From contig NZ_LT629960.1 of the NCBI RefSeq assembly GCF_900104605.1, positions 682,001 through 746,000 on the forward strand: 64,000 nucleotides of DNA. The letters run 5' to 3'. Made by a program: the position numbers and the translations under genes. The notes under the pieces are model-generated. The model saw only the letters and a program-made list of their open reading frames with translations. It ran no database searches and was not told the origin of the DNA. Source of the stretch: Tidjanibacter massiliensis (lineage in GTDB: Bacteria; Bacteroidota; Bacteroidia; Bacteroidales; Rikenellaceae). Shown here one piece after another: positions 1 through 64,000 of the stretch (position 1 is its first letter; every line of letters starts with the position of its first letter).

Positions 1-1089
1 TTCCAACTGCTGAAAAAATCGCTTCGCAACTTCCTGTGGATGTTTGTAGTGAGCATTATCACCTCGACCGTTTATTTCCTTATATCGCCGTATAGCAGCG
101 CTCAGAGCGAACTGCTGGCGCGAACGAGTCCCACGACCTACGACGTGCTTATCGCCTTTTTCGGCGGCGTCGCGGGTATGCTGGCCCAAACGCGCCGCGA
201 CCGTACCGGAACCGTCATATCCGGCGTGGCGATAGCCACCGCACTCATGCCCCCGCTCTGTACCGCGGGATTCGGCATCGCGTCCGGCGAAATCATGTAT
301 GTACTTGGTGCCTTCTACCTGTTCATCATCAATACGGTATTCATCGCCCTGGCCTCCTATCTCATGGTGATTTTTCTGAAATATGAGAAAAAGACGGCAC
401 TCGACCAGGCGGCCAGCAAGCGGATGAGACGTTATGTCATTCTCTTTTCCGTCATCATTCTCGTGCCGAGTATGATACTTACTGTCAATATCCTGCGTAA
501 AACGCAGTTTGAAGCCAACGTAGACAGGTACGTGACGAACGTCTTCCAGTTCAACAAGACGATGCTCGTTGATTACGACGTCCGCTACCGGTACGAAGGC
601 AGGCAGTCGGCCGTGGAGGTACGCCTCGTCGGCGAACCGCTGTCGCACAACGTAATAGAGAATGCCAGCGCCCAGATGGCCTATTACGGCCTGGAAAACA
701 CCGAACTGATAGTCCGGCAGGCGGATGAGAACGAACGCATCGATTTCTCCAAAATACAGCACAGTTATGCGGAAATCATAGACGAGAAGAACCGCACCAT
801 CGCCCGGCTGGAAGAGAGGCTCGCATCCGTGCAGCCGGCGGATACCGTTGCCGCCGGAGATATTTCGCGCGAAATGGCGCACGTCGCCGACCATGTGGGA
901 CGGGTATCGATGTCGAAACACATATTCTACGACGTACAGGGTGTCCCGACCGACACCGCTCTCGTGGTGACCGTCCGGCCGGACAGCCTCTCGCAGGGAG
1001 CAGTGGAGTACGACCGGATAGAGGGATGGCTGCGCACGAGGCTGAAAACCGATAATGTTATCGTTTACATTGAAGAAGGGGAGGAATGA
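1..1089 (+). CDS. DUF389 (TIGR00341-type) membrane protein, 5'-truncated by the window
   Basis: The frame is open from base 1, so the N-terminus lies outside the window. The visible part has about four hydrophobic segments in its first 150 residues, including a stretch with GVAIATALMPPL and a following glycine-rich turn, which is the hallmark of the DUF389/TIGR00341 family of hydrophobic proteins. After the membrane part comes a soluble domain of about 200 residues containing a short heptad-like segment. The function of the family is unknown; transport or sensing has only been proposed. The 3' end overlaps the next gene, so the two are probably co-transcribed. Family call fairly sure, function unknown. 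Confidence 0.8.
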   Translation, partial: FQLLKKSLRNFLWMFVVSIITSTVYFLISPYSSAQSELLARTSPTTYDVLIAFFGGVAGMLAQTRRDRTGTVISGVAIATALMPPLCTAGFGIASGEIMYVLGAFYLFIINTVFIALASYLMVIFLKYEKKTALDQAASKRMRRYVILFSVIILVPSMILTVNILRKTQFEANVDRYVTNVFQFNKTMLVDYDVRYRYEGRQSAVEVRLVGEPLSHNVIENASAQMAYYGLENTELIVRQADENERIDFSKIQHSYAEIIDEKNRTIARLEERLASVQPADTVAAGDISREMAHVADHVGRVSMSKHIFYDVQGVPTDTALVVTVRPDSLSQGAVEYDRIEGWLRTRLKTDNVIVYIEEGEE

Positions 1090-2032
1090 CATAACCGCAG
1101 GCGCAAGTCGGACGCAAAAGGCCGCTTATTACGCCTTGTACTACCTGCTGAAGGCCGTGGGACTGTTGCCGGCATGGTTTCTCTACTATCCGCTGGCAGG
1201 GGTGTGCTACCTGCTCTTGTACTATCTTTTCCGGTACAGACTGCAGGTGACGCGGGACAACTTGCAAAACGCTTTCCCCGAAAAGAGCAGAGAGGAGTTG
1301 CGCCGTATCGAACGGCGGTTCTACAGACATTTGGCTGAAGTATTCATTGATACGATAGACCTGACAAGCATTAGCCGCAGGCAGTTGCGTCGCCGAATGA
1401 TGATAAAGGACGAAGCCGTCCACCGAAAGGAGGTGGAGGGGAAGGACTGGATTGCAGGCATGTCGCACTACGGCTCATGGGAATATTTCATTGCCTATGC
1501 CCTTGGCGACGGAGAGGGCCGGGAAACCATCGGAGTGTACAAAACGCTCCATAACCGGGTGATGGACATGCTTTACCGCAGCATCCGGTCGCGAATGGGC
1601 ATGGAACCCGTCCCCATGTCGGTCATCCTGCGCCATGTAGTCCGCGACCGGCAGCAAGGTATCCGGATGGGGATAGGTCTCATCGCCGACCAGGCGCCTC
1701 CGTGGTTCCATCGGGACTACTGGTACGACTTTCTCGGTCAACCGACTTCGTTTTACGATGGGTTGGAAAACATGGCTTTGCGCTTCGGCATGCCGGTCTA
1801 TTTCGTACACATCGACAAGATACGGCGGGCACACTATACGGCCCGTTTTGAACTCATTTACGACGGGCAGGAGAGGGTAGCGCCGCACGAGATTACGAAG
1901 CGGTATGCCGCGAAACTCGAAGCGATGATACGGCAGCGGCCGGAGTTGTGGCTCTGGTCGCACAGACGCTGGAAACATAAGCCCACTCCAGAAGAACTCG
2001 AAAAACAAAGGGAGGAGGAATGTCCGAGGTAA
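1055..2032 (+). CDS. Lysophospholipid/lipid A acyltransferase, LpxL/HtrB family
   Basis: This 325-residue protein is about the usual length for inner-membrane acyltransferases that add secondary acyl chains to lipid A. A hydrophobic segment lies at about residues 24-58, and the catalytic HX4E motif is visible as HYGSWE (His138, Glu143). The ATG at 1055 lies 35 nt inside the upstream gene. A TTG at 1070 is an alternative, because the only purine-rich stretch (GAAGAAGGGGAGG) lies downstream of this ATG. The 3' end overlaps the following glycosyltransferase by 13 nt. That pairing suggests work on envelope lipid or glycan, but the acceptor cannot be read from the sequence. Confidence 0.85.
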   Translation: MLSFTLKKGRNDITAGASRTQKAAYYALYYLLKAVGLLPAWFLYYPLAGVCYLLLYYLFRYRLQVTRDNLQNAFPEKSREELRRIERRFYRHLAEVFIDTIDLTSISRRQLRRRMMIKDEAVHRKEVEGKDWIAGMSHYGSWEYFIAYALGDGEGRETIGVYKTLHNRVMDMLYRSIRSRMGMEPVPMSVILRHVVRDRQQGIRMGIGLIADQAPPWFHRDYWYDFLGQPTSFYDGLENMALRFGMPVYFVHIDKIRRAHYTARFELIYDGQERVAPHEITKRYAAKLEAMIRQRPELWLWSHRRWKHKPTPEELEKQREEECPR

Positions 2033-3030
2033 AGGTCGTCATACTTAACTGGAACGGCTATGCGCATCTGCGTACCTTCCTGCCGTCGGTACTGCGCGAT
2101 ACGCCGGAAAAGGTGGGGGTTGTCGTGGCCGACAACGGCTCTACGGACGGTTCGGCAGAGATGCTCCGTGCGGAGTTTCCCCGCGTGGAAGTGCTCCTGC
2201 TCGACAGGAACTACGGTTATGCGGGCGGTTACAATCGGGCCCTGGCATGCATCGAGGCCGACTACTACATTCTGCTCAACTCGGATGTAGAGACCTCTCC
2301 GGGTTGGTGCGAACCGCTGATAGCCGCACTGGATGCCGACCCGCGGCTTGCCGCCGTCCAGCCGAAGCTGCGTGCCTATGGCCGGCGGGAGTATTTCGAA
2401 TACGCCGGTGCATGCGGCGGATTCATCGATGCGTTCGGCTATCCGTTCTGCCGGGGCAGGATACTGTTTACCACGGAGCGGGACGAGGGGCAATATGATA
2501 CTTTCCGTTCCTGTTTTTGGGCCTCAGGAGCCTGCATGGCCTGCCGCCGGGAAATGTTTACCCGCGTCGGAGGGTTCGATGAGGAGTTTTTCGCTCATAT
2601 GGAGGAGATAGACTTGTGTTGGCGGGCACAGCTTGTCGGATACCGGATAGCCGTAGAACCGGCGAGCGTCGTTTATCATTTAGGCGGAGGGACGCTGCCG
2701 AATGATTCGCCCCGTAAAATTTACCTGAATTACCGGAATAACCTGTGGATGCTCTACAAAAATCTGCCTGCGGGCAGGTTATGGTTCACCGTTCCGTTGC
2801 GCATGGCGATAGACGGAGCGTCGGCTCTCGTATATCTCGCACAGGGACGGACGGATGCGTTCCGGCAAGTGTGGCGGGCACACATGGATTTTTACAGGAA
2901 CTTGAAAGTGCTGCACACGAAACGCAAAAAGATACAGGGGGAGGCACAAGCCCGTCCCTGCGGTATATACGGTAAATCCATCGTGCTCCGTTACTGCATG
3001 GGGCGCAAGGTATTCGGCGACATGATGTGA
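2020..3030 (+). CDS. GT2-family glycosyltransferase (rhamnosyltransferase-like)
   Basis: The protein has 336 residues. The N-terminal half is a GT-A fold: VVILNWNG at the start, VADNGSTDGS around residue 42, and LLNSDVE (DXD-like) around residue 88. An acidic EEIDLCWR motif near residue 200 is typical of WbbL-like rhamnosyl or related glycosyltransferases. The C-terminal part is basic and amphipathic, consistent with membrane association. It overlaps the LpxL-like gene by 13 nt, suggesting translational coupling and a shared role in cell-surface glycoconjugate synthesis. The sugar donor and acceptor are not determinable here. Confidence 0.85.
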   Translation: MSEVKVVILNWNGYAHLRTFLPSVLRDTPEKVGVVVADNGSTDGSAEMLRAEFPRVEVLLLDRNYGYAGGYNRALACIEADYYILLNSDVETSPGWCEPLIAALDADPRLAAVQPKLRAYGRREYFEYAGACGGFIDAFGYPFCRGRILFTTERDEGQYDTFRSCFWASGACMACRREMFTRVGGFDEEFFAHMEEIDLCWRAQLVGYRIAVEPASVVYHLGGGTLPNDSPRKIYLNYRNNLWMLYKNLPAGRLWFTVPLRMAIDGASALVYLAQGRTDAFRQVWRAHMDFYRNLKVLHTKRKKIQGEAQARPCGIYGKSIVLRYCMGRKVFGDMM

Positions 3031-3067
3031 CCGCTCCCGCGTCGCTTCTCCCGGCTCGGTTCCGACC

Positions 3068-3592: not shown

Positions 3593-3653
3593 CCCGTACT
3601 TTTCTGTTTTTCGTTTTCAGGCCCGCCGCCTTTTCTGCCGTAATCTTCATCCG

Positions 3654-4196: not shown

Positions 4197-4290
4197 CTCG
4201 TTTCGTCTTTAAGTCTTCCGCAAAGATAGAGAATAATTGCCGTAAAAAAGAGACCCTGCCGGCAGATGTGGCGGCAGGGTCGGGAAGAAG

Positions 4291-4361
4291 TTGAGCCATC
4301 GGGATTCGAACCCAAAATGACAGAACCAAAATCTGCAGTGTTACCATTACACCATGGCTCA
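4291..4361 (-). tRNA. tRNA-Gln (anticodon TTG)
   Basis: Read on the minus strand, the 71-nt sequence folds as a cloverleaf. The 7-bp acceptor stem pairs TGAGCCA with TGGCTCA. The D-arm is GTGT..ACAC, and the anticodon stem GCAGA/TCTGT encloses loop TTTTGGT with anticodon TTG. The T-arm has the canonical GGTTCGAATCC. The discriminator base is A and no CCA is encoded. TTG decodes CAA, and CAG by wobble, so it is a glutamine tRNA. A TACATTTG promoter-like box lies about 20 nt upstream (4379-4386, minus strand). Confidence 0.95.
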
Positions 4362-6565: not shown

Positions 6566-6584
6566 ACGATATATCCGCCGAATA

Positions 6585-6622: not shown

Positions 6623-8599
6623 TCAAATGGTCAAAACGACGCCTGCGGTTATCCAGCGTGGCGGCTGAATCAGTCCCACGAAATCGTAATATTTCGTATC
6701 GAGCAGGTTGGTAGCCTCTGCATAGACGGAGAATACGCCCCTGCTCCAACTGAGACGGGCATCCAGCAGCCAATAGGGAGCATAAGCGGTGTCCGGGGTA
6801 TTGTTGCGGCAGTACCACGATGCCGTCACTTCGGCGGCGAACCCCTTGCCGATATCGATTCCGCACTGTACGGCGGCCTTGTGTTTCATGTAGTCGAGAG
6901 CGTATTTGGTGATATGGTCGGCAGCGGCTTTGGATGAAGACATCCAGCCGTAACTCACCGTGATGTGCCGGAGAATCCGCCGGCCACGGTAGGAAGCCTG
7001 CATCTCTATCCCGTAGGTATCCAGCTCGGTAAGCTGGGTTGATTTCCATTTCATCCCCTCGGGAGTCTCCGTCTGCACATAGTCGATGATGTCCCGGCCA
7101 TGGCGGTAATATCCCGAAAGGGCGGCCTGAAAGCGGCCTGCATGGTAGCGCGTTCCCACCCGGTAGGTCATGGCGTGTTCCGGCTTGAGGTCGGGGTTGC
7201 CAATGTGGGTGGCATTGGTATAGTATAGGTCCGTAAAGGTCGGGAGGCGCATGGAACGGGTGGCATTGGCGTCGGCGCTCCAGCCTTCCATGATTTGCTG
7301 GGTAACGGAGAGGCTCCACGAAGGGAAGGTCCCGTAAGGACTTCCGGCCAGATTCGCCGAACCGGCCAGCGATGTGCCGCCGAGCCGTACCCGATGGCTC
7401 AGCCAGCCGTTGAAAATGTTCCGTCCTTTTTCGTGGGTATAAAAAGCGTCCGCTCCCGGCACCCGGATGGGGTGCGTGAGGAGGTCGCCCAGCACGTTGC
7501 TGTAGATGTGGTGGTATCGGTAATCCGCTCCGGCCGACGTCTCTCCCGCCGCCCAGCGGAATGCCGCACTGATGCTCGCACCGGCGTTGTCCGTCGTGTG
7601 GTAGTTGGGAGTCCATCCTTCGGGAGCCCCTTTGCCTCCGCGGTAAAGCTCGTAACGGTCGTTGTTCTTGCGATAACTTGCATTTGCATTGAGGGTAAAC
7701 CTGCCGAAACTGCGGTTCCATTTCACCGACGCGAGCGCAGTCTCCGTATGCTCGAACTGGTCGGGGAAAGAGAGTGAGTAGAACCCGTTGGAACCGAAAT
7801 CCCGTCGCTGATAGCCGGCCTGCATGTCGAACAGTCCGGCTGAAGACGAAGTGTAAGTAATACGCGTGAAAAGATTGGAATTGTTGAAATCGGTATTTTC
7901 AATGTATCCGTCACTCCGTCTGACGGAACCGGCGGCCAATACCGAAAGGCCGTTGCGGGTGATGGCTCCGGAGATGTTGGAGTAGAGATAGCCGTAGGCT
8001 CCTCCGGAGATTTCCGTCCTCATGTAGTTCGGACGGAGCGGAGTAGTCACCATATTGACCGCTCCCGCGTAGGCCCCGATGCCGGTCAGCCCTTCGATGA
8101 TGTCTATCGAACCGATGATGTCGATATCGACGGGCAGGCTGTGGCTCTGGTGCCCTGTGCGTGCATCGGTGAAGTCGATGCCGTTGAGAAGGACCATGGT
8201 CTGGTCGTAAGTTCCTCCCCGCAGGGAGATGTCCGCCTGTACTCCCTTTCCGCCCCGCTCTCGCACGTCTATCGCGGGATTGAGCCTGAGTACGCCTTCG
8301 ATAGTCTGCTGAGGCGCGATGCCCAGCGTGTCGCGGCTATACACCGCCGTGGGTGTCACTACACCCCTTGTGGGATTCAGTCTTTCGGCCGTTACCTGCA
8401 ACGCCTCGATTTCCATTTCGCGTAGCAGCCTCACCGTGTCGGGCTGTGCCGACGCGCTTTTGGCGTTGAGCGTGATGATGGACATCGACAGGGAGAGCAC
8501 GCCTATCTTCACCACTTTGCCGAGTGAAGCGAACGCGCCGTATCCCTTGCGTGACCAGCGAGTGAAACACCTTACCCCACTTTTAGAACGTTTCTTCAT
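6623..8599 (-). CDS. TonB-dependent outer-membrane receptor (BtuB-like)
   Basis: The protein has 658 residues, counting from ATG 8599. It has a long basic n-region followed by a hydrophobic core ending in SASAQ, a likely signal peptide. A TonB-box-like stretch (EIEALQVTAER) follows, then a plug domain with LRLNPAIDVRERGGKG, ISLRGG and VLLNGI, and a 22-strand-type barrel ending in aromatic-rich strands. Such receptors import chelated metals, cobalamin or other ligands using TonB energy. There is no SusD partner and no N-terminal carboxypeptidase-regulatory domain, so a BtuB/FepA-type role is more likely than SusC; the ligand is unknown. The frame extends 69 codons upstream, but the promoter at 8645-8675 lies inside that extension, which supports the 8599 start. 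Confidence 0.88.
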   Translation of the reverse strand: MKKRSKSGVRCFTRWSRKGYGAFASLGKVVKIGVLSLSMSIITLNAKSASAQPDTVRLLREMEIEALQVTAERLNPTRGVVTPTAVYSRDTLGIAPQQTIEGVLRLNPAIDVRERGGKGVQADISLRGGTYDQTMVLLNGIDFTDARTGHQSHSLPVDIDIIGSIDIIEGLTGIGAYAGAVNMVTTPLRPNYMRTEISGGAYGYLYSNISGAITRNGLSVLAAGSVRRSDGYIENTDFNNSNLFTRITYTSSSAGLFDMQAGYQRRDFGSNGFYSLSFPDQFEHTETALASVKWNRSFGRFTLNANASYRKNNDRYELYRGGKGAPEGWTPNYHTTDNAGASISAAFRWAAGETSAGADYRYHHIYSNVLGDLLTHPIRVPGADAFYTHEKGRNIFNGWLSHRVRLGGTSLAGSANLAGSPYGTFPSWSLSVTQQIMEGWSADANATRSMRLPTFTDLYYTNATHIGNPDLKPEHAMTYRVGTRYHAGRFQAALSGYYRHGRDIIDYVQTETPEGMKWKSTQLTELDTYGIEMQASYRGRRILRHITVSYGWMSSSKAAADHITKYALDYMKHKAAVQCGIDIGKGFAAEVTASWYCRNNTPDTAYAPYWLLDARLSWSRGVFSVYAEATNLLDTKYYDFVGLIQPPRWITAGVVLTI

Positions 8600-14608: not shown

Positions 14609-15172
14609 ATGAAGGAGGAAATAGAGAGGGCCGTGGAGGTGCTGCGCAGGGGAGGTATCATTCTTTACCCGACCGATACGGTATGGGGAATAGGCTGCGA
14701 TGCAACCGACGAGACTGCGGTGGAGAGGGTCTATCAACTGAAACGTTCCTGCAACAAGAAGGGCATGATTGTGCTGACAGAGAGCATCGACCGCGTGGGA
14801 TGCTACTTCAGAAACGTCCCGGCCGTAGCTTGGGATCTGCTCGAATGTGCAGACAAGCCGCTGACACTCATCCTACCAGGAGCCTGCGGCGTGGCGAAAA
14901 ATCTGGTGCCGGAGGAGGGAACGCTTGCAGTCCGCGTCCCCAACCACGCATTCTGCCGGAACCTGCTGCACCGATTCGGCCGGCCGCTGGTATCGACCTC
15001 GGCGAACATCTCCGGCGAGGCTACCCCGAAAGGGTTCGGCGATATTGCCGAAGAGATACGTGCGGGTGTCGATTACACGGTCGATATCCGCTGCGAAGGC
15101 GCTCCCACCCGCAAGGCATCCTCCATCATCATGCTCGGAGAGGATGGAGAAGTGAAAATCATCAGAGAATAA
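14609..15172 (+). CDS. tsaC: L-threonylcarbamoyladenylate synthase (TsaC/YrdC/Sua5)
   Basis: TsaC makes threonylcarbamoyl-AMP from Thr, bicarbonate and ATP for the t6A37 modification of ANN-decoding tRNAs. The 187-residue protein carries the YrdC signature: GGIILYPTDTVWGIGCDA near residue 14, YQLKRSCNKKGMIVL, and LVSTSANISGEATP near residue 129. It ends shortly after the YrdC domain, so it is the short TsaC form without the Sua5 C-terminal domain. A divergent -7 box (TACTTTTG, 14581-14588) is 20 nt upstream. The thioesterase gene starts 4 nt after the stop. Confidence 0.93.
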   Translation: MKEEIERAVEVLRRGGIILYPTDTVWGIGCDATDETAVERVYQLKRSCNKKGMIVLTESIDRVGCYFRNVPAVAWDLLECADKPLTLILPGACGVAKNLVPEEGTLAVRVPNHAFCRNLLHRFGRPLVSTSANISGEATPKGFGDIAEEIRAGVDYTVDIRCEGAPTRKASSIIMLGEDGEVKIIRE

Positions 15173-15717: not shown

Positions 15718-15738
15718 AGAACTTTGACAGCAAAAACG

Positions 15739-16641
15739 ATGAAACAATATCCCGCCAAACCGTTTGTAAAATGGGCCGGAGGCAAAGGCCAGCTGTTGAC
15801 AACATTGGGCCAGGCATTACCCGAGACGTTCTGCAACATAGAAGATGCTGTCTATATCGAACCTTTTGTCGGGGGAGGGGCTATGCTCTTCTTTATGTTG
15901 CAAAACTTCGGCAATATCAAAAAAGCCGTTATCAGTGACGTAAACACCAATTTAATCAAAGCATACGAAGTAATCAAGGACACTCCCGAACGTCTTGTCG
16001 GCATCCTATCGAAAATTCAGGATACATATTGGAAAATCCCGGAAACAGATAAACGGAAAGAGTTCTATCTCGACATACGCCAAAAGTTCAATCAGGGCGG
16101 GCTGTCCGATATCGATAATACGGCATATTTTATTTTTTTAAACAGAACCTGTTTCAACGGTTTGTACCGCGTAAACTCCAAAGGTCAGTTCAATGTTCCT
16201 TTCGGCAAGTATACCAACCCTACCATTTGTGATGAACGAACTATTTATGCGGACAGTCTTTTGCTGCAAAAGGTAGAGGTACTGTACGGCGATTTTGAAC
16301 AGACTGAAAAATTCGCAATTGCGGATAATACATTCATATATTGCGACCCGCCGTACCGGCCCCTGACAGCTACGGCCAATTTCAGCGCCTATTCTGTACA
16401 ATCATTTTCCGATGCGGACCAGATACGTCTGAAAAAATACGCCGACAGATTGTCTCTGAAACATTGCTTCCTGATGCTGAGTAATGCCGATTGTCGGGAA
16501 TGGAATCCAGAAGATAACTTCCTGGATGAACTGTATCGCGAATACCACATCAACCGCATCCAGGCCGTTCGTTGTATTAATGCCAACGCAGCGAAACGAG
16601 GTAAATTACCGGAACTACTTATCAGGAATTATCAGGATTGA
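15739..16641 (+). CDS. DpnII-like (D12 class) adenine-N6 DNA methyltransferase
   Basis: The 300-residue protein has the alpha-class adenine methylase motif order: KWAGGKGQLL at residues 11-20 (motif X), EPFVGGGA at 41-48 (motif I, AdoMet), and CDPPY at 202-206 (motif IV, catalytic), followed by an FSAYSVQSFS region. It belongs to the Dam/M.DpnII family, whose usual target is GATC. The first plausible ATG is 15739; an in-frame TTG at 15724 is less likely. The cognate endonuclease follows 20 nt downstream. The gene is visibly richer in A+T than its neighbours, consistent with acquisition. Confidence 0.9.
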   Translation: MKQYPAKPFVKWAGGKGQLLTTLGQALPETFCNIEDAVYIEPFVGGGAMLFFMLQNFGNIKKAVISDVNTNLIKAYEVIKDTPERLVGILSKIQDTYWKIPETDKRKEFYLDIRQKFNQGGLSDIDNTAYFIFLNRTCFNGLYRVNSKGQFNVPFGKYTNPTICDERTIYADSLLLQKVEVLYGDFEQTEKFAIADNTFIYCDPPYRPLTATANFSAYSVQSFSDADQIRLKKYADRLSLKHCFLMLSNADCREWNPEDNFLDELYREYHINRIQAVRCINANAAKRGKLPELLIRNYQD

Positions 16642-16661
16642 TTTTTATTTCCCAAATTGTT

Positions 16662-17492
16662 ATGAAAGAACGTTTTGACAAATTCATGTCGGAACTCGTA
16701 GAGACCAATGCCCCGTTAAGTTTTTTCTCCGATTTCAAGAAAATAGCCGCGAATGTCGATGCGATAGCCGTCAAACTCAATCAATTGAACTATTTAGTCG
16801 GTCAGGAGGATATGGAGCGGGCAATACGCAATCTTTGGAATGAGAATCCTAAAGTATTCAGCGCTTTGGATATTCTGATTGCCGTACGTGCCACAGACAG
16901 GAAAAAAACGATCGACAAATACGGAAAGACCCGTTTGGTTGAAGAGTTTTTCCAAACTCCGGAAGGCGTAATCGAATACATCGAAGGGACGGGACTCAAA
17001 AAGATACTCCAGAATAAACAAATACATAACTTGGTGGATTATGTCTTTGGCATTGAAACAGGTCTCGATACCAATGCCCGCAAAAATAGAAGCGGATATA
17101 TTATGGAACAGCGGATAGCCACATTACTTCGTTCGTATGACATTTCTTTCCGACAAGAGGTATATTCGTCTGCATTTCCGGAAATGCAATGTTTGGGAAG
17201 CGATTTAAAACGATTCGATTTTGTCATCTCTTCCCATATCAAAACTTATTTGATTGAGGTTAATTTTTATAGTGGGGGTGGTTCCAAACTGAATGAGGTT
17301 GCACGTTCCTATTCCGAACTCGCTCCGAAAATCAACCAATTTCCAAACTACGAATTCGTATGGATAACGGATGGAATCGGATGGAAATCGGCGCGTAATA
17401 AATTGGAGGAAGCTTTTGCCGTTATTCCAAAAATTTATAATTTAGCAACGGTAACTGATTTTATTACCGGGATAAAAAACGGAACTTTATAA
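16662..17492 (+). CDS. DpnII-family type II restriction endonuclease
   Basis: The 276-residue protein matches the DpnII/MboI endonuclease family. It has SFFSDFKKIAANVDAIAVKL near residue 20, KYGKTRLVEEFF near 87, and the catalytic region RFDFVIS (Asp186) ... YLIEVNFYSGGGSKLNE (Glu199). This is a PD-(D/E)XK-like core in which the glycine-rich SGGGSK loop is highly characteristic. Expected activity is cleavage at GATC without adenine methylation. The start is ATG 16662; the TTG extension at 16638 would overlap the methylase. No frameshift or stop is seen, so it appears intact. A+T-rich like the methylase. Confidence 0.88.
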   Translation: MKERFDKFMSELVETNAPLSFFSDFKKIAANVDAIAVKLNQLNYLVGQEDMERAIRNLWNENPKVFSALDILIAVRATDRKKTIDKYGKTRLVEEFFQTPEGVIEYIEGTGLKKILQNKQIHNLVDYVFGIETGLDTNARKNRSGYIMEQRIATLLRSYDISFRQEVYSSAFPEMQCLGSDLKRFDFVISSHIKTYLIEVNFYSGGGSKLNEVARSYSELAPKINQFPNYEFVWITDGIGWKSARNKLEEAFAVIPKIYNLATVTDFITGIKNGTL

Positions 17493-17505: not shown

Positions 17506-17769
17506 ATGCTATGCAATAAAGACCATTCTAGCATTCAGAAGATTATGCAGGAACTTCCTGATGACCAAGGTGGTATCGGACGACATAAATGCGCTGCCTG
17601 TGCATATGAACAAGGTTATCAAGATGGCCGCAACCGTATCATGACTATTGATATTGCTCAAGTTGTCGGTAGTTTGAGCGAAAGCCAGGCACAAAATCAA
17701 AGACATAAAAGTCCTCACGTCGCCTATATGCGAGGTTACTATGACGGCATTCTGAAGAGCTTCAGCTAG
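17506..17769 (+). CDS. Small protein linked to the restriction system, two internal repeats
   Basis: An 87-residue protein 13 nt after the endonuclease. Two copies of one motif are visible exactly 40 residues apart: RHKCAACAYEQGYQDG (26-41) and RHKSPHVAYMRGYYDG (66-81), consensus RHKx4AYx2GYxDG. The first copy has CxxC (Cys29, Cys32) preceded by His27; the second lacks the cysteines. I do not recognise a named family. Position and matching A+T content suggest it belongs to the restriction cassette, perhaps as a controller or accessory subunit, but it has no obvious helix-turn-helix. It converges on thiL. Confidence 0.7.
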   Translation: MLCNKDHSSIQKIMQELPDDQGGIGRHKCAACAYEQGYQDGRNRIMTIDIAQVVGSLSESQAQNQRHKSPHVAYMRGYYDGILKSFS

Positions 17770-17779
17770 ATACCCATAA

Positions 17780-18808
17780 TCATTGTTCCCTGAATCCCGG
17801 CGCGGTCAGCGAAAGTTCGCTGCCGTCGGGGGTAACGAGCCTCGTACCGGTCGAGGCAGGTGTGATGTGACCGATGATGTCGATACCTCCTATACCCGCT
17901 ATTTTGGCCTGCTGGGTCACGGGAACGGTAAAGAGCAGTTCGTTGTCATCGCCTCCGTTGAGGGCAGCCACTACCGGATCGGCATGCAGCTCTTCGGCCA
18001 TCTTATGAGTTTCCCGGGCTATCGGTATCCTTTCGAGATAGAGTCTGACACCGCATCCGGAATTTTTGCATATCTGCAGCATGTCCGACGCCAGCCCGTC
18101 GGAGAGGTCTATCATGGAAGTGGGTACGATACCGGCCGACCGGAGCGAAGCAACAGTATCGGAGGCCGCGGTCGGTTTCAATTGCCTGCGCAGCAGGTAT
18201 TCATACCCCTCGAACTGGGGCTGGGGAGAATCATTGCCCGCAAAGGCACGCTTCTCCCGTTCGAGCAGGTGAAGTCCCATATAAGCCGCACCCAAGTCGC
18301 CCGTAATGCACACGATGTCATTGACACGAGCTCCGCTGCGGTACGCTATTTTGTCCTTATCCACACTCCCTGCCACCGATACGCTGATGGCCAATCCATT
18401 CACGGACGCCGTCGTATCGCCTCCCACGAGGTCTATCCGATAGTCTTCGCATGCACTCCGTATTCCCGAATACAGCTCTTCCAGGTCCTCTACCGAAAAT
18501 TTGGCCGATACGCCGATGCAGACAGTCAGTTGTTCAGGCGTTCCATTCATGGCGTATATGTCGTTGATTCCCACGACGACTGCCTTATAGCCTAAATGTT
18601 TCAAAGGGAAATAGACCAGGTCGAAATTGACGCCCTCCAGCAACATGTCCGAGGAGAGCAACAGATAACGTTCTCCGGCATCTATTACAGCGGCATCGTC
18701 CCCGGCGCCCAGCACCGTGGATGCGTTACGTATGGGAAACTGGCAGGTAAGCCGCTCTATCAGTCCGAACTCTCCGAGCTCGGCTATCTCCGTTCTTTTC
18801 GCAGGCAT
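17780..18808 (-). CDS. thiL: Thiamine-monophosphate kinase
   Basis: ThiL phosphorylates thiamine monophosphate to thiamine diphosphate, the last step of cofactor synthesis. The 342-residue protein has the AIR-synthase-like fold. Its N-terminal GEFGLIERL is followed by LGAGDDAAVIDAG (Mg/ATP-binding Asp pair), LLEGVNFDL, AVVVGINDIYAMNG, VGGDTTAS and SDGLASD. The start at 18808 (MPAKRTEIAELGEFG) is chosen over a 56-codon extension that would reach into the adk promoter. It is divergent from adk. Confidence 0.92.
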   Translation of the reverse strand: MPAKRTEIAELGEFGLIERLTCQFPIRNASTVLGAGDDAAVIDAGERYLLLSSDMLLEGVNFDLVYFPLKHLGYKAVVVGINDIYAMNGTPEQLTVCIGVSAKFSVEDLEELYSGIRSACEDYRIDLVGGDTTASVNGLAISVSVAGSVDKDKIAYRSGARVNDIVCITGDLGAAYMGLHLLEREKRAFAGNDSPQPQFEGYEYLLRRQLKPTAASDTVASLRSAGIVPTSMIDLSDGLASDMLQICKNSGCGVRLYLERIPIARETHKMAEELHADPVVAALNGGDDNELLFTVPVTQQAKIAGIGGIDIIGHITPASTGTRLVTPDGSELSLTAPGFREQ

Positions 18809-18920
18809 ATTTTTTTGTTTATCGTTTGTTCCGCGGCTGTCCGACCAATTTGTCGGAGCGGCAGCAGGGTGGTATTTGTACTTATTTTCCGGCAGTGCTT
18901 TCCACAAAGTTACATTATTT

Positions 18921-18950
18921 TTGGTTTGGTGGAAAATCTGGTTAATTTTG
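18921..18950 (+). promoter_or_regulatory. Promoter for adk
   Basis: TTG (18921-18923), 19 nt, TAATTTTG (18943-18950): a full Bacteroidetes consensus. The adk ATG lies 37 nt further on. The opposite strand has TAACTTTG (18912-18905), a possible thiL -7 box. Confidence 0.7.
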
Positions 18951-18987
18951 TCGGCTGTTAATCTGATAACAACCAAAAGTCAACCTT

Positions 18988-21668: not shown

Positions 21669-22907
21669 TTAGAATTCGTGTATCACAATGCCGGAACGGA
21701 GTTTCGGTTCGAACCACGTCGTCTTCGGAGGCATGATGTTCCCGCTGTCGGCAATGTCGATGAGCTGCTGCATGGAAACGGGGTAGAGGGCGAAAGCCAC
21801 CTTCATCTCACCGCTGTCCACACGACGCTGGAGCTCGCCGAGCCCGCGGATACCACCTACGAAATCTATCCTCTTGTCGGTACGCAGGTCCTTAATGCCG
21901 AGGATATTATCGAGAACGAGATTGGAGAGTACCGTCACGTCGAGTACGCCGATAGGATCTGCATCGTTGTACGTTCCCGCCTTGGCCGTCAGGCTGTACC
22001 ATTTGCCGTCGAGATACATGCCGAAATTGTGGAGCTTGTTGGGCTTGTAAATCTCCTTGCCCATCTCCTTCACGTCGAAATCCTTCTTCAACGCATCGAG
22101 GAACTGTGCCGGAGTAAGGCCGTTCAGGTCTTTTACCACGCGGTTGTAATCGATGATGTTGAGCTGGTTGGCCGGGAAGAGCACGGCGAGGAAATAGTTG
22201 TACTCCTCTTCGCCCGTATGGTGCGGATTGGCTTTCATCCGCTCTTGGCCCACACGCGCAGCGGCAGCGGTACGGTGATGACCGTCAGCTACATAAAGTG
22301 CCGGAACGCCTTCGAATATCTTGGTGATACGGTCGATAACGGCTTTGTCGCTGATTATCCACATCTGGTGACGCACGTCGTCGGCCGAAGTAAAGTCGTA
22401 TTCGGCAGGCTGATTCTTGACCGTAGCGGCTACGATGTCGTCTATCTCCTTGATATCGGGGTAGGCGAAGAACACCGGCTCCATGTTGGCGCTCTGGATG
22501 TTCACATGTATCATACGGTCTTCCTCCTTCTCCGTGCGGGTCAGCTCGTGTTTCTTAATCTTGCCGTCGATGTAATCCATGAAATTGGAAGCCACAGCAA
22601 GACCGTACTGCGTTTTGCCGTTCATCGTCTGGGCATAGATGTAGTAGTGCTCCTCGTTGTCCTTCACGAGCCAGCCTTTCTCTTTCCAGAGTTTGAAGTT
22701 CTCAACCGCCTTGTCATACACCTTCTTGTCGTGCTCGTCGGCAATCGGGTCGAAATCTATCTCGGGCTTGATGATGTGAAGCAGCGAACGTTCCGTCGCT
22801 TCTGCCTTGGCCTCTTTCGAGTTGAGTACGTCGTAGGGACGCGAAGCCACCTCCGCCGCATACTGCTTGGGCGGACGAGTGCCTTTAAAAGGTTTTATCT
22901 TTACCAT
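21669..22907 (-). CDS. DUF1015 family protein in the serine biosynthesis cluster
   Basis: The 412-residue protein starts MVKIKPFKGTRPPKQYAAEV and contains RPYDV and the conserved LYVADGHHRTAAAARVG segment (about residue 205), all DUF1015 hallmarks. Family members frequently sit beside serA and serC, as here, and are suspected to act on a serine- or phosphoserine-related compound, but no reaction is established to my knowledge. It is the last gene of serC-serA-DUF1015, with an 89-nt gap after serA. Confidence 0.87.
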   Translation of the reverse strand: MVKIKPFKGTRPPKQYAAEVASRPYDVLNSKEAKAEATERSLLHIIKPEIDFDPIADEHDKKVYDKAVENFKLWKEKGWLVKDNEEHYYIYAQTMNGKTQYGLAVASNFMDYIDGKIKKHELTRTEKEEDRMIHVNIQSANMEPVFFAYPDIKEIDDIVAATVKNQPAEYDFTSADDVRHQMWIISDKAVIDRITKIFEGVPALYVADGHHRTAAAARVGQERMKANPHHTGEEEYNYFLAVLFPANQLNIIDYNRVVKDLNGLTPAQFLDALKKDFDVKEMGKEIYKPNKLHNFGMYLDGKWYSLTAKAGTYNDADPIGVLDVTVLSNLVLDNILGIKDLRTDKRIDFVGGIRGLGELQRRVDSGEMKVAFALYPVSMQQLIDIADSGNIMPPKTTWFEPKLRSGIVIHEF

Positions 22908-37954: not shown

Positions 37955-40773
37955 CAGTCGTTTCGGTTTTGGGCCCGTAAAGAGAGATATTGTCCGGTAT
38001 GGCTCTCCGGACACTCCGCAAGGTCGGCCGGAGTTCCTGCAAACACCAGGCGTCCACCCCCTTCGCCCGCTTCCGGGCCGAGGTCTATCACCCAGTCGGC
38101 ACACCGGATGACATCCATGTTGTGCTCCACAACCACAATGGTATGTCCCTTTTCGATGAGAGCATTGAAGGCCGCGAGGAGCTTGTTGATGTCGTGAAAA
38201 TGGAGTCCGGTCGTCGGTTCGTCGAACACGAACAGGGTACTCTCCGAAGCATTGTCCTTCATCAGAAAAGTAGCCAGTTTCACCCGCTGTATCTCTCCTC
38301 CGGAGAGGGTGGAGGTGGATTGGCCGAGCTTGATATACCCCAGCCCCACATCCTGCAGCGTTTTCAGTATCTCCAGCACTTTCCTGTTCGCGGCATTGCC
38401 GCCGTCCAGCGCAAAAAACTCCATCGCCTCGTCCACCGTCATCTCCAGCACATCGTATATCGACCGGCCATGATACTTGACCTCCAATACGTTGTCATTG
38501 AAGCGTTTGCCTCCGCAGTACTCACATTTGAGCTCGATGTCGGCCATAAACTGCATACCTACCACCACGAAACCGTCACCCTGACACTCTTCGCACCGGC
38601 CGCCGGGCCGGTTGAACGAAAAATAGGAGGGCGTCATGCCGTTGTTCACGGCATAGGGCTGGTCGGCGAATATCTTGCGAATGTAGTCGTAGGCCTTGGT
38701 ATAGGTGACGGGATTGGAACGCTGCGACTTTCCAATCGGATTTTGGTCTATCATCTCGATGGATTTCAACATGCCGACGTCGCCGGCCAGCCCTTCAAAA
38801 CTACCCGGTTTCACACCCGTTTCAAACAGTTTGCGCCGGACAGCCGGATAGAGTATCCCCTTGACGAGAGACGATTTGCCGCTGCCGCTCACCCCGGTAA
38901 CACAGGTCATCACACCGAGCGGTATCTTCACGTCTATCCCTTTGAGATTGTTCTCTCTCGCACCCTTTATTTCAATGCAGTTGCTCCAGCCGCGCGGAGA
39001 GGTCGGAGGATGTATGGCGCGTTTGCCTGTCAGGTAATCCGCCGTCAGGCTGCCTTCCGCCTTTTCAAGCTGTTCGAACGAACCGTTGAATACCACCTGT
39101 CCGCCGTTGTAACCCGCTTCCGGGCCGATGTCGATGATGCGGTCGGCAGCACGGATTATCTCCTCCTCGTGTTCGACGACGATTACCGTATTGCCCAAAT
39201 CGCGGAGTTGCCTAAGAACCTTAATGAGCCGCGCCGTATCGCGCGGATGGAGACCGATACTCGGTTCGTCGAGAATATAGAGCGAGCCGGTCAGGTTGCT
39301 ACCGAGCGACGTGGCGAGATTGATGCGCTGGCTCTCGCCTCCGGAAAGGGTGGAGGAGAGACGGTCGAGCGTCAGATATCCCAACCCCACATCGGAGAGG
39401 TAAGCCAGCCGGTTGCGTATTTCGACCAAGACGCGCGAAGCCGTCTGTGCGTCGTGTTCGTCCAGGACGAGACTGCCGAAAAATTCCATGAGGCTGTCCA
39501 CGCTCATGGCCACAAGCTCTGCGATGTTCTTGCCGCCTACTTTGACGTAAAGTGCCTCCTTACGGAGCCTGCTCCCGCCGCATTCATGGCAAAGCGTCTT
39601 GCCCGTATATCTGGAGAGCAATACCCGATACTGTATCTTGTAGCGTTCGCTTTCGAGGTATGCGAAGAAATCGTTCAGCCCTTTGAAATAGCGGTTTCCC
39701 GTCCACAGCAACTGTTTCTGCTCTCTGGTGAGTTCGTAGTAGGGCCTGTGTATCGGAAAATCAAACTTGTGGGCAGAAGCCACCAACTGCTCTTTCCACC
39801 ACTTCATGGTATCGCCGCGCCAGGCGGCTATCGCGTCGTCGTAGATGCTTCTGGTCTTGTCGGGCACGACGAGCTCTTCGTCGATTCCGATAACCTTGCC
39901 ATACCCTTCGCAAACCGGGCAGGCCCCTATCGGATTGTTGAACGAAAACATATGCTCGGTCGGAACTTCGAAAGTCATCCCGTCGGCCTCAAAACGGGTA
40001 GAGAAGATCTCCGCCCGGTCGCCGTCCTCCTCCTGCACGACTATCTTGCAGCTCCCGCCGCCGTAACTCAGCGCCTGTGCGACCGAATCGCCCAGCCTGC
40101 TCTTCGTCTCCTCGTCATCGCGGACCTTGACACGGTCCACCACGATGTCGAACTCCCCGGTCTGTTCAATTCCCGGCCGGGAGATATACTCTTCGACAGG
40201 GATGGCAGCACCGTCGGCATAAATGCGCTGGATACCCTCCTTGACGAGCAGGGTAAGCCGTTCTACGGCACCCTGACCTGCTGCGGGCCGGACGGTGGCA
40301 CAGATGAGTACACGTCGGCCGGTCTGTCCGACGATGTAGGAGACGATATCCTGTACCTGATAACACCTCACCTCCCGACCTGTGACGGGAGAGTAGGTCC
40401 GCCCTATACGGGCGAAAAGCAGTTTCAGGTAGTCGTATATCTCGGTAGACGTACCGACCGTCGAACGGGGATTGCGCGTATTAACTTTCTGCTCTATCGC
40501 AATCGCGGGAGCGATGCCGCTTATCGAATCTACATCGGGTTTGTCGATACGGCCGAGAAACTGGCGGGCATAGGCGGAAAGGCTCTCGACATACCTGCGC
40601 TGCCCTTCGGCGAACAGGGTATCGAAAGCCAGCGTGGATTTACCGGAACCTGAAAGCCCTGTGACGACCACCAGCCGGTTATGGGGAATTTCGAGGCTGA
40701 TATTCTTCAAATTATGTACCCTAGCCCCCTTTATGTAAATGGAATCGTGTTTTTCCGCGTCGTTCTTCTGCAT
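37954..40773 (-). CDS. uvrA: Excinuclease ABC subunit A
   Basis: The 939-residue DNA-damage sensor of nucleotide excision repair has two ABC ATPase modules, with Walker A sequences GLSGSGKST near residue 39 and GVSGSGKSS near 640. Zinc modules contain [10 protein letters not shown] and [15 protein letters not shown]; signature motifs are LSGGESQRI and LSGGEIQRV. Length is standard. It begins 7 nt after yigZ and its stop shares a base with the M16 start. One of the window's five GATC sites lies here (40006-40009). Confidence 0.97.
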
Positions 40774-49616: not shown

Positions 49617-50642
49617 ATGGCAGAAAAAAAAGAAGTGAGCGCAGACAAGCTGAAAGTACTCAATGCAGTGCTCGACAAAATAGAGAAGGATTTCGGCAAA
49701 GGAGCCGTTATGAGAATGAGCAGCGACAAGGTCGAGGAGGTGGCCGTTATCCCCTCCGGTTCGATTACGCTGGATATGGCCCTCGGAGTGGGAGGCTATC
49801 CCAAAGGCCGAGTCGTGGAGATATTCGGCCCCGAATCGTCGGGTAAGACGACCCTGGCGCTGCACGCCATAGCAGAAGCCCAGAAAGCGGGCGGACTGGC
49901 TGCCTTCATCGATGCCGAACACGCTTTCGACAGAAGCTATGCCCAGGCGCTCGGAGTAGACGTGGACAATCTGTTGATTTCCCAGCCGGACAACGGCGAA
50001 CAGGCATTGGAGATAGCCGACAGCCTTATCCGTTCCAGCGCGATAGATATCATCGTAATAGACTCAGTAGCGGCCCTGACACCCAAAGCGGAGATAGAGG
50101 GCGACATGGGAGAATCCAAAATGGGACTCCAGGCCCGGTTGATGTCGCAGGCACTCCGAAAACTGACCGCGAGCATCAGCAAGACCAAAACGGTCTGCAT
50201 CTTCATCAACCAGCTCCGCGACAAGATAGGCGTGGTATATGGCAATCCGGAAACGACCACCGGCGGCAATGCACTGAAATTCTATGCCAGTGTCCGCATC
50301 GATATCCGCAAAGCCTCCAGCATCAAGGACGGTGAAGAGCAGCTCGGTGCAAGAGCCAAAGTCAAAGTCGTCAAGAACAAGGTGGCTCCGCCTTTCCGCC
50401 GCGCCGAATTCGACATCATGTACGGCGAAGGTATCTCCAAAGTAGGGGAGATAGTAGACCTCGGCGTTGATTTCGACGTAATCAAAAAAAGCGGTTCGTG
50501 GTATTCTTACGGCGACAGGCGACTCGCACAGGGCCGTGACGCCGTCAAGGATTTGCTGACGGCCGACGAACCGTTGATGGAAGAAATCGAGGGCAAAGTG
50601 CGCGAAGCCATGAAAGAAGCACGCAACGCCCCGAAGAAATAG
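49617..50642 (+). CDS. recA: Recombinase RecA
   Basis: The 341-residue recombinase shows the N-terminal helix [21 protein letters not shown], Walker [15 protein letters not shown] near residue 65, Walker [13 protein letters not shown] near 140, the L1/L2 loops around [22 protein letters not shown] and [22 protein letters not shown], and a basic C-terminal end. All key residues appear intact. It is followed after 67 nt by the (p)ppGpp enzyme gene. Confidence 0.97.
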
Positions 50643-50709
50643 GTTGCCGCCTCCGGCAAACGCCCCATGCGTTCCGCTGGCTTCCGAACCAATCAAACCG
50701 TATCTGCCT

Positions 50710-52917
50710 ATGGCAACAGCTGGCTACTCCGAAGAACACGAAATAATCATTACGGACCGTTTCAACGACCTTCTCTCATCCTGCTCGAAAATAGTCAAGA
50801 AGGAGGAGGACTGGGAGTTGATACGCAAGGCTTTCTTCCTCGCAAAGGAGGCCCATAAGGGGGTATTGCGCCGCAGCGGGGAACCCTATATACTGCACCC
50901 CCTCGCCGTCGCCAAAATCGTAGTGGAGGAGATAGGGCTGGGCGTAAAATCCGTGGCGGCCGCTCTTCTGCACGACGTAGTGGAGGATACGGCCTACACG
51001 GTGGAGGAAATCGATACCATTTTCGGGGAGAAGATTGCCTACATGGTGGACGGCCTGACCAAAATGGCCGGGGTAGTGAACACGGACACCTCCAAACAGG
51101 CCGCCTATTTCCGCAAAGTGCTGCTGACGCTGTCAGACGATGTGAGGGTCATCCTCATCAAGATAGCCGACCGGCTGCATAACATGCGGACAATGGCCTC
51201 CATGCCGCGCGACAAGCAGGTGAAGATATCGAGCGAAACCCTCTATCTGTTCGCTCCGCTGGCCTACCGACTTGGTCTGTATGCCATCAAAACCGAGTTG
51301 GAAGACTTGAGCCTGCGCTACCGGTATCCGGAACAATACTTCGAGATTGTCCGGAAACTGGACGAGACGGAGCCAGACAGAAACGAATTCATAAACCGTT
51401 TCATCGCCCCCATCAGGCAGCGCCTCACCGAGAGCGGCATCGACTTTACGATAGCAGGACGCGTCAAAAGCATCTTCTCCATCTGGTCGAAGATGCAGCG
51501 GAAAGGAATCTCCTTCGAAGACGTTTACGACCTCTTCGCCATCCGCATCGTATTCAAGCCCACGGAACTCATTCCCGAAAAATCGCAGTGCTGGCACATC
51601 TACTCCCTCATCACGGACATCTACGCTCCGAAGCCGGACCGCATCCGCGACTGGGTAAACTTTCCGAAAGCCAACGGCTACGAAGCGCTACATGCCACAG
51701 TCATGGGGCCGGACGGTATCTGGGCCGAAGTGCAAATACGCTCCGAACGCATGGAAGAGATAGCCGAACGGGGATTCGCCGCCCATTGGAAATACAAACA
51801 GGCTCACAGCAGCGAAGACGAATTCGACAAATGGCTTAAAGAGGTGAGGAATGCACTGAAGGGACCTACCGAAGATGCGGTAGAGTTTCTCGACAATGTA
51901 CGCCTCACCTTATATACCAATGAAATCGTCGTTTTCACCCCCAAAGGAGAACCCCGAAAGATGCCGCAGGGTGCGACGGTACTGGATTTCGCCTACAATA
52001 TCCATACGAATGTGGGGAACAAGGCAATCGGCGCCAAAGTGAACCACAAGATAGAGTCCATCTTCGAGACGCTGAAAAACGGCGACCAGATAGAGATTAT
52101 CACCTCCGACAATTCGCGGCCCAATCTCGAATGGCTCGACCATGTGACTACGGCGAAAGCCAAACAATCCATCACCACCTACCTGAAACGTTCACGGGAA
52201 AACAACATCGAACGGGGTATCGAACTGTTCGACCGACGCATGGAGGAGTTCGGCATCACTCCCAGCGCACGCGTTTTCCGGAAAATATTGCCTGCCTACG
52301 AATGCAGCAACAAGGATGAATTTTATAGCAAGCTGGGGTCCGGCATCATCAATCTCGACGGTGTAGATAAAGTTCTGCGTCAAAATTCGATGAGCAAGGT
52401 GCTGAAGTTTTGGGACATCCAGCTCACCAAACCCTTCAAGTCCGACAAACAGGATACATTGCTTGTCGGAAATTCGGATACGAAAGACGGCAATACGCCG
52501 AAATTTGTCATCGCAGAAGGGTGCAATCCCATTCCGGGCGACGATATCGTAGGATACAGAACCCCCGGCACGAATACCATCGTAGTTCATAAAGCCGGCT
52601 GCGAAGACATTACCCGCCTGGCCGCCCAGCATGGGGAGAATATCATCACCAGCATCAAATGGTCGAGCTACAAAGCCGAATCCTACCTGGCGGAAATAGA
52701 GGTCCGGGGCATAGACAGAGTAGGGATATTGGTAGACCTTTCACAGGTCATCACCCTGGAACTCGGCATCAACATCCGTGAACTCGCCATACAGAGTCAT
52801 GACGGTATTTTTGAGGGCAAAATAAGCGTTTACGTAAAAGATACCGAAAATTTGAATGCCTTGCTGGATAGGGTAGGCAGTATCAAAGGCATCGAAAAAG
52901 TGAAGCGAACGCTATAA
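50710..52917 (+). CDS. Bifunctional (p)ppGpp synthetase/hydrolase (RelA/SpoT family)
   Basis: The 735-residue stringent-response enzyme has an HD hydrolase domain (LLHDVVEDT, His88-Asp89), a synthetase domain (about residues 220-370, with YDLFAIRIVFKP and KANGYEALHATVMGPDG), a TGS domain (VVFTPKGEPRKMPQGATVLDFAYNIH) and a C-terminal ACT domain (AEIEVRGIDRVGILVDL). The intact HD suggests it both makes and degrades (p)ppGpp. The start at 50710 (MATAGYSEEH) is preferred over an upstream TTG frame that is proline-rich and unlike the family. Confidence 0.94.
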   Translation: MATAGYSEEHEIIITDRFNDLLSSCSKIVKKEEDWELIRKAFFLAKEAHKGVLRRSGEPYILHPLAVAKIVVEEIGLGVKSVAAALLHDVVEDTAYTVEEIDTIFGEKIAYMVDGLTKMAGVVNTDTSKQAAYFRKVLLTLSDDVRVILIKIADRLHNMRTMASMPRDKQVKISSETLYLFAPLAYRLGLYAIKTELEDLSLRYRYPEQYFEIVRKLDETEPDRNEFINRFIAPIRQRLTESGIDFTIAGRVKSIFSIWSKMQRKGISFEDVYDLFAIRIVFKPTELIPEKSQCWHIYSLITDIYAPKPDRIRDWVNFPKANGYEALHATVMGPDGIWAEVQIRSERMEEIAERGFAAHWKYKQAHSSEDEFDKWLKEVRNALKGPTEDAVEFLDNVRLTLYTNEIVVFTPKGEPRKMPQGATVLDFAYNIHTNVGNKAIGAKVNHKIESIFETLKNGDQIEIITSDNSRPNLEWLDHVTTAKAKQSITTYLKRSRENNIERGIELFDRRMEEFGITPSARVFRKILPAYECSNKDEFYSKLGSGIINLDGVDKVLRQNSMSKVLKFWDIQLTKPFKSDKQDTLLVGNSDTKDGNTPKFVIAEGCNPIPGDDIVGYRTPGTNTIVVHKAGCEDITRLAAQHGENIITSIKWSSYKAESYLAEIEVRGIDRVGILVDLSQVITLELGINIRELAIQSHDGIFEGKISVYVKDTENLNALLDRVGSIKGIEKVKRTL

Positions 52918-57751: not shown

Positions 57752-57759
57752 CTTCCTTG

Positions 57760-59109: not shown

Positions 59110-59151
59110 AATTCTATTATATTGCACAACAGCCAGCGCTCCCTTTTGGCA

Positions 59152-59199: not shown

Positions 59200-59211
59200 A
59201 TACACAGACTG

Positions 59212-60453: not shown

Positions 60454-60468
60454 AATCCACTAACCTAT

Positions 60469-61089: not shown

Positions 61090-61093
61090 ACCC

Positions 61094-62525: not shown

Positions 62526-62532
62526 GGCCGCA

Positions 62533-63729: not shown

Positions 63730-63733
63730 ATCC

Positions 63734-64000
63734 TTAGCTCAGCTCTTTAATCATCAAATTGATACCGTCCGCAATGACCGCCTGCATCTCCGTCTTGGAG
63801 GGGTCTACGAATTCGCAGAGCGCGAAATCTTCCGGAAGCACCTCGTAGATACCGAGATTCTCCATCTTGTCGATATCTCCGGCCATGCAGGCCTTAAGCA
63901 GATAAATCGGATAGATGTTCATCGGCAGATAGCGGTCGTAGAGCCCGGTCACCACCAATGCACGCCTGCCTCCATTCAGGTTGGTATCGAGGTCATACCT
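63734..64000 (-). CDS. nqrA: Na+-NQR subunit A, C-terminal part (truncated by the window)
   Basis: The frame is open to base 64000, so only the last 88 residues are visible, beginning RYDLDTNLNGGRRALVVTG. The segment PMNIYPIYLLKACMAGDIDKME and EFVDPSKTEMQAVIADGINLM match the NqrA C-terminus. The position directly ahead of nqrB (4-nt gap) confirms the assignment. The promoter of the operon lies outside the window. Confidence 0.93.
   Translation of the reverse strand, partial: RYDLDTNLNGGRRALVVTGLYDRYLPMNIYPIYLLKACMAGDIDKMENLGIYEVLPEDFALCEFVDPSKTEMQAVIADGINLMIKELS

Follow-up and report, generated by a model that had tools for sequence, protein, structure and literature searches.

The DpnII restriction-modification locus of Streptococcus pneumoniae has the layout dpnM-dpnA-dpnB. 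According to the accessible part of a previous survey (Rusinov 2015, PMC4687349), avoidance of the recognition site is found for about half of the orthodox Type II systems, and traces of lost systems persist in relatives, GATC being a frequent case. Such avoidance is often a modest dip, whereas it is almost complete in the DNA described here. We analysed a window of 64,000 nucleotides (positions 682001-746000 of contig C8) of the Tidjanibacter massiliensis genome (G000; 2.39 Mb, 99.98% complete), in which the tetranucleotide GATC is nearly absent and which encodes an intact-looking cassette predicted to be a DpnII-type Type II restriction-modification system. As in the pneumococcal system, the genes for a DpnM-type methylase and a PF04556 endonuclease are adjacent. 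Unlike that system, the cassette does not contain a second, single-strand methylase gene, and its third gene encodes an 87-amino acid protein. As far as the accessible part of Rusinov 2015 (PMC4687349) allows comparison, our case is similar in that the palindromic site of a Type II system with independent methylase and nuclease is under-represented in the host and in that depletion outlasts the system in relatives. It differs in that the observed/expected ratio (o/e) in the core genome, 0.011 (calculated here with a Markov model that is not theirs), is far below that survey's cut-off of 0.78 and in that the distribution of the effect within one bacterial family, the Rikenellaceae, is bimodal; no treatment of this family was found in that part of the paper. 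The principle of restriction-site avoidance is already known from the same source, and G000 is a new and extreme example of it; the new features are the depth, a core purged almost completely while islands retain the word, and sharp contrasts among members of a single family.

The window contains exactly five GATC sites (Table 1), at the positions given in the initial annotation and nowhere else. The expected number is 247.5 from base composition, 278.6 from a maximal-order Markov model based on trimers (o/e 0.018) and 366.8±16.8 from 100 dinucleotide-preserving shuffles. The depletion thus amounts to approximately 50- to 73-fold, depending on the model used, and the near-absence of GATC is certain. 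The initial annotation, which had named a count near the Markov expectation as evidence to the contrary, was right about the depletion and about an expectation of at least 200 sites (248 to 367, by model) but understated the size of the depletion (∼40-fold) and placed the G+C content near 55%, the measured value being 53.1%. GATA, GATG and GATT each occur in the hundreds, as it had stated (436, 357 and 260, respectively), and dnaA, recA and the (p)ppGpp enzyme gene have no GATC, because the window is free of the word after position 40009. Among the 16 palindromic tetramers, CTAG alone is also very low in the window (7 versus 54.6 expected). Its o/e is equally low (0.07) in the GATC-normal congener G053, indicating that the CTAG shortage is separate, general and outside the GATC effect. 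The o/e of CTAG is 0.00-0.13 in every genome sampled except G037 (0.26), whatever the GATC state.

Table 1. Residual GATC sites, cassette genes and GATC-free genes in the window
Feature	Position	Strand	Description
GATC site	14834..14837	+	Sua5/YrdC gene; frame GAT CTG (Asp-Leu)
GATC site	16910..16913	+	within the DpnII gene itself; frame ACG ATC (Thr-Ile)
GATC site	17977..17980	-	gene 17780-18976 (AIR synthase-related, PF00586; ThiL-like by our reading); frame GAT CCG (Asp-Pro)
GATC site	21956..21959	-	DUF1015 gene; frame GAT CCT (Asp-Pro)
GATC site	40006..40009	-	uvrA; frame GAG ATC (Glu-Ile)
Adenine-N6 DNA methyltransferase gene (DpnM/Dam-like)	15724..16641	+	305 amino acids; TIGR00571 dam 273 bits, PF02086 195 bits
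DpnII-family restriction endonuclease gene	16638..17492	+	284 amino acids; TTG start as called
Third cassette gene	17506..17769	+	87 amino acids
dnaA	47841-49451		GATC-free
recA	49617-50642		GATC-free
spoT/relA	50644-52917		GATC-free

To sample G000 beyond the window, 20 places (294 kb) were fetched, of which five small contigs were entirely masked as N. The 15 unmasked places together contain 101 GATC sites versus 1145 expected under the Markov model. Eleven core places contain 0-2 sites each versus 67-89 expected, and 10 versus 870 in sum (o/e 0.011), whereas three 20-kb stretches contain 16 to 34 each. In stretch L021, none of the 18 GATC sites lies before position 7046 and the first is at 7112; the block from 7046, which encodes an SNF2-type helicase, a DNA methylase and ResIII-type proteins, holds the sites. 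In L022, 1 of the 16 sites precedes a phage-type integrase gene at 10784 and the remainder follow it. A conjugative coupling protein is encoded in L013. The island-like, presumably newly acquired DNA in L021 and L022 is less depleted by a test that is post hoc, because the split between core and island was drawn after the counts were seen and the islands were chosen by them; GATC density sharply marks island-like DNA in G000. The small contig C4 (L028, 6856 bases) has near-normal GATC (23 versus 28.7 expected) and is possibly a plasmid or a recent element. From pattern counts, we estimate ∼270 GATC sites in the whole genome, where ∼9500 would be expected if the Markov expectation for the fetched stretches held throughout. 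The o/e of GATC in G000 is 0.01-0.02 and that of the next four-letter palindrome after CTAG, ACGT, is 0.67; the general CTAG shortage aside, GATC is the sole purged four-letter palindrome of the core. Three six-letter palindromes are low in the core: CTATAG (1 versus 18 expected), CTCGAG (15 versus 76) and GTCGAC (20 versus 80). GTCGAC and CTATAG are also low in G053. CTCGAG is not in the list of low words for that genome, and its shortage is possibly a second, milder footprint.

GATC avoidance in G000 holds across codon frames and non-coding DNA. Before a codon starting with C, Asp is encoded by GAC in 685 of 692 cases and by GAT in only 7, whereas GAT accounts for 40-58% before other bases. 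Similarly, ATC is used for Ile in 3 of 1056 cases after a codon ending in G and in 52-69% otherwise, and Gly before TCN is encoded by GGA once in 167 cases. Non-coding or unassigned DNA contains 4 GATC sites versus 164 expected. In the congener G053 (GATC o/e 1.05; 58.8% G+C in the sampled stretches), by contrast, GAT is used for Asp before C in 51% and ATC for Ile after G in 71%, and non-coding or unassigned DNA contains 337 sites versus 312 expected. After G, the Ile codon ATA is preferred to ATT in G000 (779:274, window and core), whereas ATT is preferred in six of the seven other GATC-poor genomes sampled, and G037 uses ATA (85:60). The ATA preference is therefore lineage-specific, and we rejected the idea that the resulting excess of GATA is a mark left by the cutter.

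In the cassette, the best solved structure for the methylase is 2dpm (DpnM; E 6e-60), and the alignment between the two includes the DPPY motif. This Dam-class enzyme with the catalytic DPPY motif is encoded next to the PF04556 endonuclease and is expected to protect GATC. The DpnII frame overlaps the methylase frame by 4 bases, and its product matches PF04556 over the full length (332.7 bits; residues 13-275, profile positions 2-275 of 278) and PADLOC REase_II (285 bits); it is the single PF04556 match in the whole genome. These matches agree with the DpnII-like system described in the initial annotation. The 87-amino acid protein has no match in Pfam, NCBIfam or PADLOC. It holds two similar stretches (HKCAACAYEQGYQDG / RHKSPHVAYMRGYYDG), and tblastn detected relatives in 12 loci, 11 of which are among the best 80 DpnII loci; the best matches show 51-63% identity and mostly lie just downstream of DpnII. 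A relative with 48% identity follows the DUF6997 endonuclease gene in L146 (G112).

The G+C content of the cassette region is 43-44%, compared with 53% for the window. In nine further family genomes with a DpnII locus (G015, G083, G084, G086, G091, G129, G139, G142 and G148), the fetched flanks gave no convincing match to the site of the cassette over a reach of ∼0.6 kb past the methylase and 1.5 kb past DpnII (none downstream in G084, owing to the contig edge). A short match in L011 (32 residues at 31%) to positions 14706-14801 was taken as chance. At the tenth family locus (G016), a homologue of another window gene adjoins DpnII. Since the cassette is AT-rich and the flanks of the family loci are unlike its site, we conclude that it moves and that the depletion probably predates its arrival at the present site. 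The initial annotation had likewise placed the exposure before the AT-rich cassette, and its alternative of a long history of such systems in the lineage is preferred here for the same reasons.

To examine the family, a GATC-containing pattern was counted over 150 Rikenellaceae genomes of 22 genera and normalised to GTAC hits, which may themselves be low in some genomes. The thresholds were fixed after the distribution had been seen; six are reported, and the main one is a ratio of <0.25. The pattern counts are bimodal, with 51 of the 150 genomes at <150 hits per Mb and 76 at ≥500. At the main threshold, 32 genomes are GATC-poor; the ratio of G000 is 0.030, and ratios within the genus g1 span 0.03 to 2.13. 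Eight of the 11 DpnII carriers are GATC-poor, compared with 24 of the 139 others (P = 2e-4, with no tree correction), and exclusion of G000 leaves 7 of 10 versus 24 of 139 (P = 7e-4). DpnII carriers are not enriched in CATG-poor genomes (3/11 versus 32/139, P = 0.72). IceA1/NlaIII-type systems, whose specificity is CATG, provide a parallel case in the family on another word: all seven IceA (PF05315) carriers are CATG-poor, compared with 28 of 143 others (P = 2e-5). IceA has no match in G000, where CATG is normal (ratio 0.87). Both associations persist at the six thresholds, and DpnII goes with low GATC and not low CATG whereas IceA goes with low CATG, tying each word to its own enzyme.

DpnII hosts beyond the family show a similar tendency. 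We took the best 80 of 249 DpnII relatives, which are Bacteroidota by their titles; five were dropped and 75 had enough flanking sequence. Outside the cassette, the median GATC o/e of these 75 loci is 0.33, with 60 below 0.5 and two at or above 0.78. Three are at ∼0.02 or below, one of which (L047) is the family member G016. DpnII hosts are thus generally GATC-poor, but seldom as poor as G000.

We attribute the near-absence of GATC, with a probability of roughly 85%, to Type II restriction that has cut at this word over a long time. A DpnII-like nuclease would cut every GATC left unmethylated, and each GATC would be a small liability per replication and also upon loss or imbalance of the system, so that site-destroying mutations would be favoured across thousands of sites until few are left. 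In this scheme, the selective agent would be cleavage and not methylation itself. If the core o/e of 0.011 reflects mutation-selection balance, our estimate from theory is a 2Nes of ∼4.5 per site, which would be weak but sufficient. Earlier GATC systems in the lineage would have begun the purge and the present DpnII cassette would only continue their work, such systems being repeatedly gained and lost in Rikenellaceae. Whether the present cassette itself contributed most of the depletion is close to a coin toss.

Several observations weigh against this explanation. IceA carriers also lean towards low GATC (4/7 at the 0.25 threshold, P = 0.04; 6/7 at 0.35, P = 0.002), so that loss of one word is not independent of loss of the other, and the enzymes contrast cleanly in one direction only; in addition, both words are lost in 15 of the 150 genomes (P = 8e-4). 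G084 carries DpnII with GATC not depleted (ratio 1.24), and its DpnII gene, truncated by the contig end, may be a recent arrival. The genomes of the survey are related to each other, and its P values are without tree correction. In 18 of the 32 GATC-poor genomes, 12 of which are at least 90% complete, profile and methylase searches detected no GATC system, and these 18 include some of the deepest cases (G115, G007 and G071). CATG shows the same surplus, 28 of the 35 CATG-poor genomes having no IceA, which disturbs a clean pairing of one enzyme with one word and points to systems that come and go and not to a force acting on GATC only. In fetched stretches, deep GATC loss was confirmed in G115 (0 versus 212 expected), G071 (3 versus 176), G007 (8 versus 242) and G136 (o/e 0.02). 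The initial annotation's proposal of GATC restriction as the cause is thus supported in that DpnII tracks the loss of GATC and not of CATG, and weakened by the existence of depleted relatives with no detected system. Equal depletion in relatives that never carried a GATC-specific system was its own counter-argument: G115, G007 and G071 are equally deep and show none in their draft genomes, but may have carried one in the past.

Among the other explanations, the strongest is that older GATC systems left most of the depletion behind and that the AT-rich cassette is a recent re-arrival with a small contribution, to which we give slightly less than an even chance. GATC-poor genomes would be safe landing sites for cassettes, which would partly reverse cause and effect. 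The low G+C content of the cassette, the nine unmatched family flanks, the many GATC-poor genomes without a detected system, the range of ratios within g1 and the traces of lost systems reported in the accessible part of Rusinov 2015 (PMC4687349) are all consistent with such a history. However, we estimate that an o/e of 0.011 would climb within ∼1% neutral divergence absent continuing selection, and some GATC system must therefore have acted until very recently.

A second possibility is that part of the family, perhaps including this lineage, has an unrecognised agent acting on GATC, such as an unfamiliar endonuclease, a G*ATC phosphorothioate-dependent system or a system missing from draft bins. 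G*ATC phosphorothioation is described for gut metagenomes in the accessible part of PMC11931770, and G115, G071 and G007, which are as deep as G000, have none of the profiles PF04556, PF06044, PF02976 and PF22518 and no DpnM-like methylase. We consider this explanation unlikely, because the full DpnII cassette suffices in G000 and the surplus of CATG-poor genomes over IceA carriers makes come-and-go systems a general explanation. The related claim that Rikenellaceae harbour at least one GATC nuclease beyond the DpnII, DpnI, MutH/Sau3AI and DUF6997 profiles, which would hold GATC in G115, G007 and G071 to a few percent of expectation or less, is doubtful.

The searches for such agents in the 150 genomes detected DpnI (PF06044) over the cut-off only in G095 and G106 (G056 was below it) and MutH/Sau3AI (PF02976) only in G031. 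DUF6996/DUF6997 endonucleases were found in seven genomes. In six of these the endonuclease gene adjoins that of a D12 methylase; G033 has a different methylase at this place, with a DpnM-like gene ending at the margin of a separate contig. Four of the seven carriers are GATC-poor by hits per Mb and three (G013, G024 and G039) at the GTAC-normalised threshold of 0.25, whereas GATC is not poor in G010, G112 and G114. The loci beside D12 methylases (L114, L120, L121, L146, L147 and L150) bear only a DUF name in Pfam; PADLOC REase_II matched the three DUF6996/DUF6997 loci tested (L114, L120 and L151). Of the 41 DpnII-free genomes with <150 hits per Mb, all but G014 and G109 (39 genomes) entered the DpnM-like methylase search, together with G015 and G016; no GATC-rich genomes were included. 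Tallies of any GATC system, which include G065 and G136 for their DpnM-like methylase and the DUF6997 carriers by hypothesis, hence suffer from ascertainment bias. The tests for DpnII, DpnI, MutH and IceA covered all 150 genomes and are free of it. All 18 system-less genomes were in the DpnM-like search, with weak D12 matches in G137 (28% identity) and G146 (26%) not counted. A D12 profile search of 11 of the 18 showed that the D12 methylase of G071, G076, G089 and G115 is the IceA partner and that G144 and G124 have other or fragmentary D12 matches. No GATC candidate was found among C5 methylases (22 genomes; neighbours inspected at the G115 and G000 loci only) or beta-class methylases (26 genomes; neighbours at 10 of 23 loci), in searches that were not exhaustive and did not extend to Dnd/Ssp genes.

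The first candidate for an unrecognised GATC endonuclease lies in G136, where two open reading frames (L117 254-952 and 949-1482; 233 and 178 amino acids) directly follow the DpnM-like methylase and have no match in Pfam, NCBIfam or PADLOC. Two other leads were rejected. In G071 and G136, a beta-class methylase is accompanied by a protein of ∼260 amino acids (L174 2362-3144 and L173 412-1182, respectively) that has no match in Pfam or PADLOC, nor, for the L174 copy, in NCBIfam. The pair was discarded as a GATC system since it fits CGWCG, the recognition site of Hpy99I, which is purged in both genomes (o/e 0.03-0.04); it may be a CGWCG restriction system. A TdeIII-like nuclease in G007 was dropped because GGNCC is not among the words listed below 0.45 for that genome. 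In the fetched stretches, CATG is purged in G071, G115, G089, G141 (8.4 kb) and G045, GGCC in G136, G089 and G141, ACGT in G045 and G141, and GCGC in G089. CATG is almost absent from the IceA-bearing G071, G089, G141 and G115. An IceA/NlaIII-type gene is followed by a gene for a 336-amino acid D12 methylase in G071 (L194/L219), G089 (L186/L220) and G141 (L185, with the methylase cut by the contig edge). A second methylase-like gene (263-291 amino acids) precedes IceA in these three genomes, and none was seen in G115 (L222).

It is very improbable that a mutational process, such as methylcytosine deamination or biased repair, removed GATC in place of selection. GATC has been lost evenly from coding and non-coding DNA, an outcome that mutation would also yield but that is not specific to it. 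We compared sites in an alignment of G000 and G053 (∼23 kb in 19 segments at 75% identity), minus the two segments in L021 and L022. None of the 189 GATC sites of G053 aligned to the core is kept in G000, whereas the same alignment retains 35-56% of the sites for GTAC, CATG, TCGA and TGCA. The destroying changes are spread over all four bases, which looks like the pattern expected of selection for loss via any cheap route, and the replacement codon varies by lineage. Only 13 of the 135 single changes are C to T or G to A, and decay of methylcytosine was rejected on this ground. The expected modification, N6-methyladenine, is not known as a strong mutagen. An artefact of composition or codon usage has a negligible chance, because, although CTAG is also rare with no restriction explanation found here, it is refuted by the Markov and shuffle expectations, by the normal GATC of G053 and by the commonness of ATC and GAT in every context except those forming GATC.

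These results have a practical consequence, which is our own inference: methods based on DpnII, MboI or Sau3AI, such as metagenome Hi-C or 3C and partial-digest libraries, would detect next to nothing of genomes of this kind, and a literature search of limited coverage found no paper on this problem. As the purge varies sharply among species of one genus, the rates of purging and recovery should be measurable. If an unrecognised nuclease does exist, the missing words (CATG, GGCC, ACGT, GCGC and CGWCG, purged in various members in addition to GATC) would read out the restriction history of each lineage, making the family a natural laboratory.

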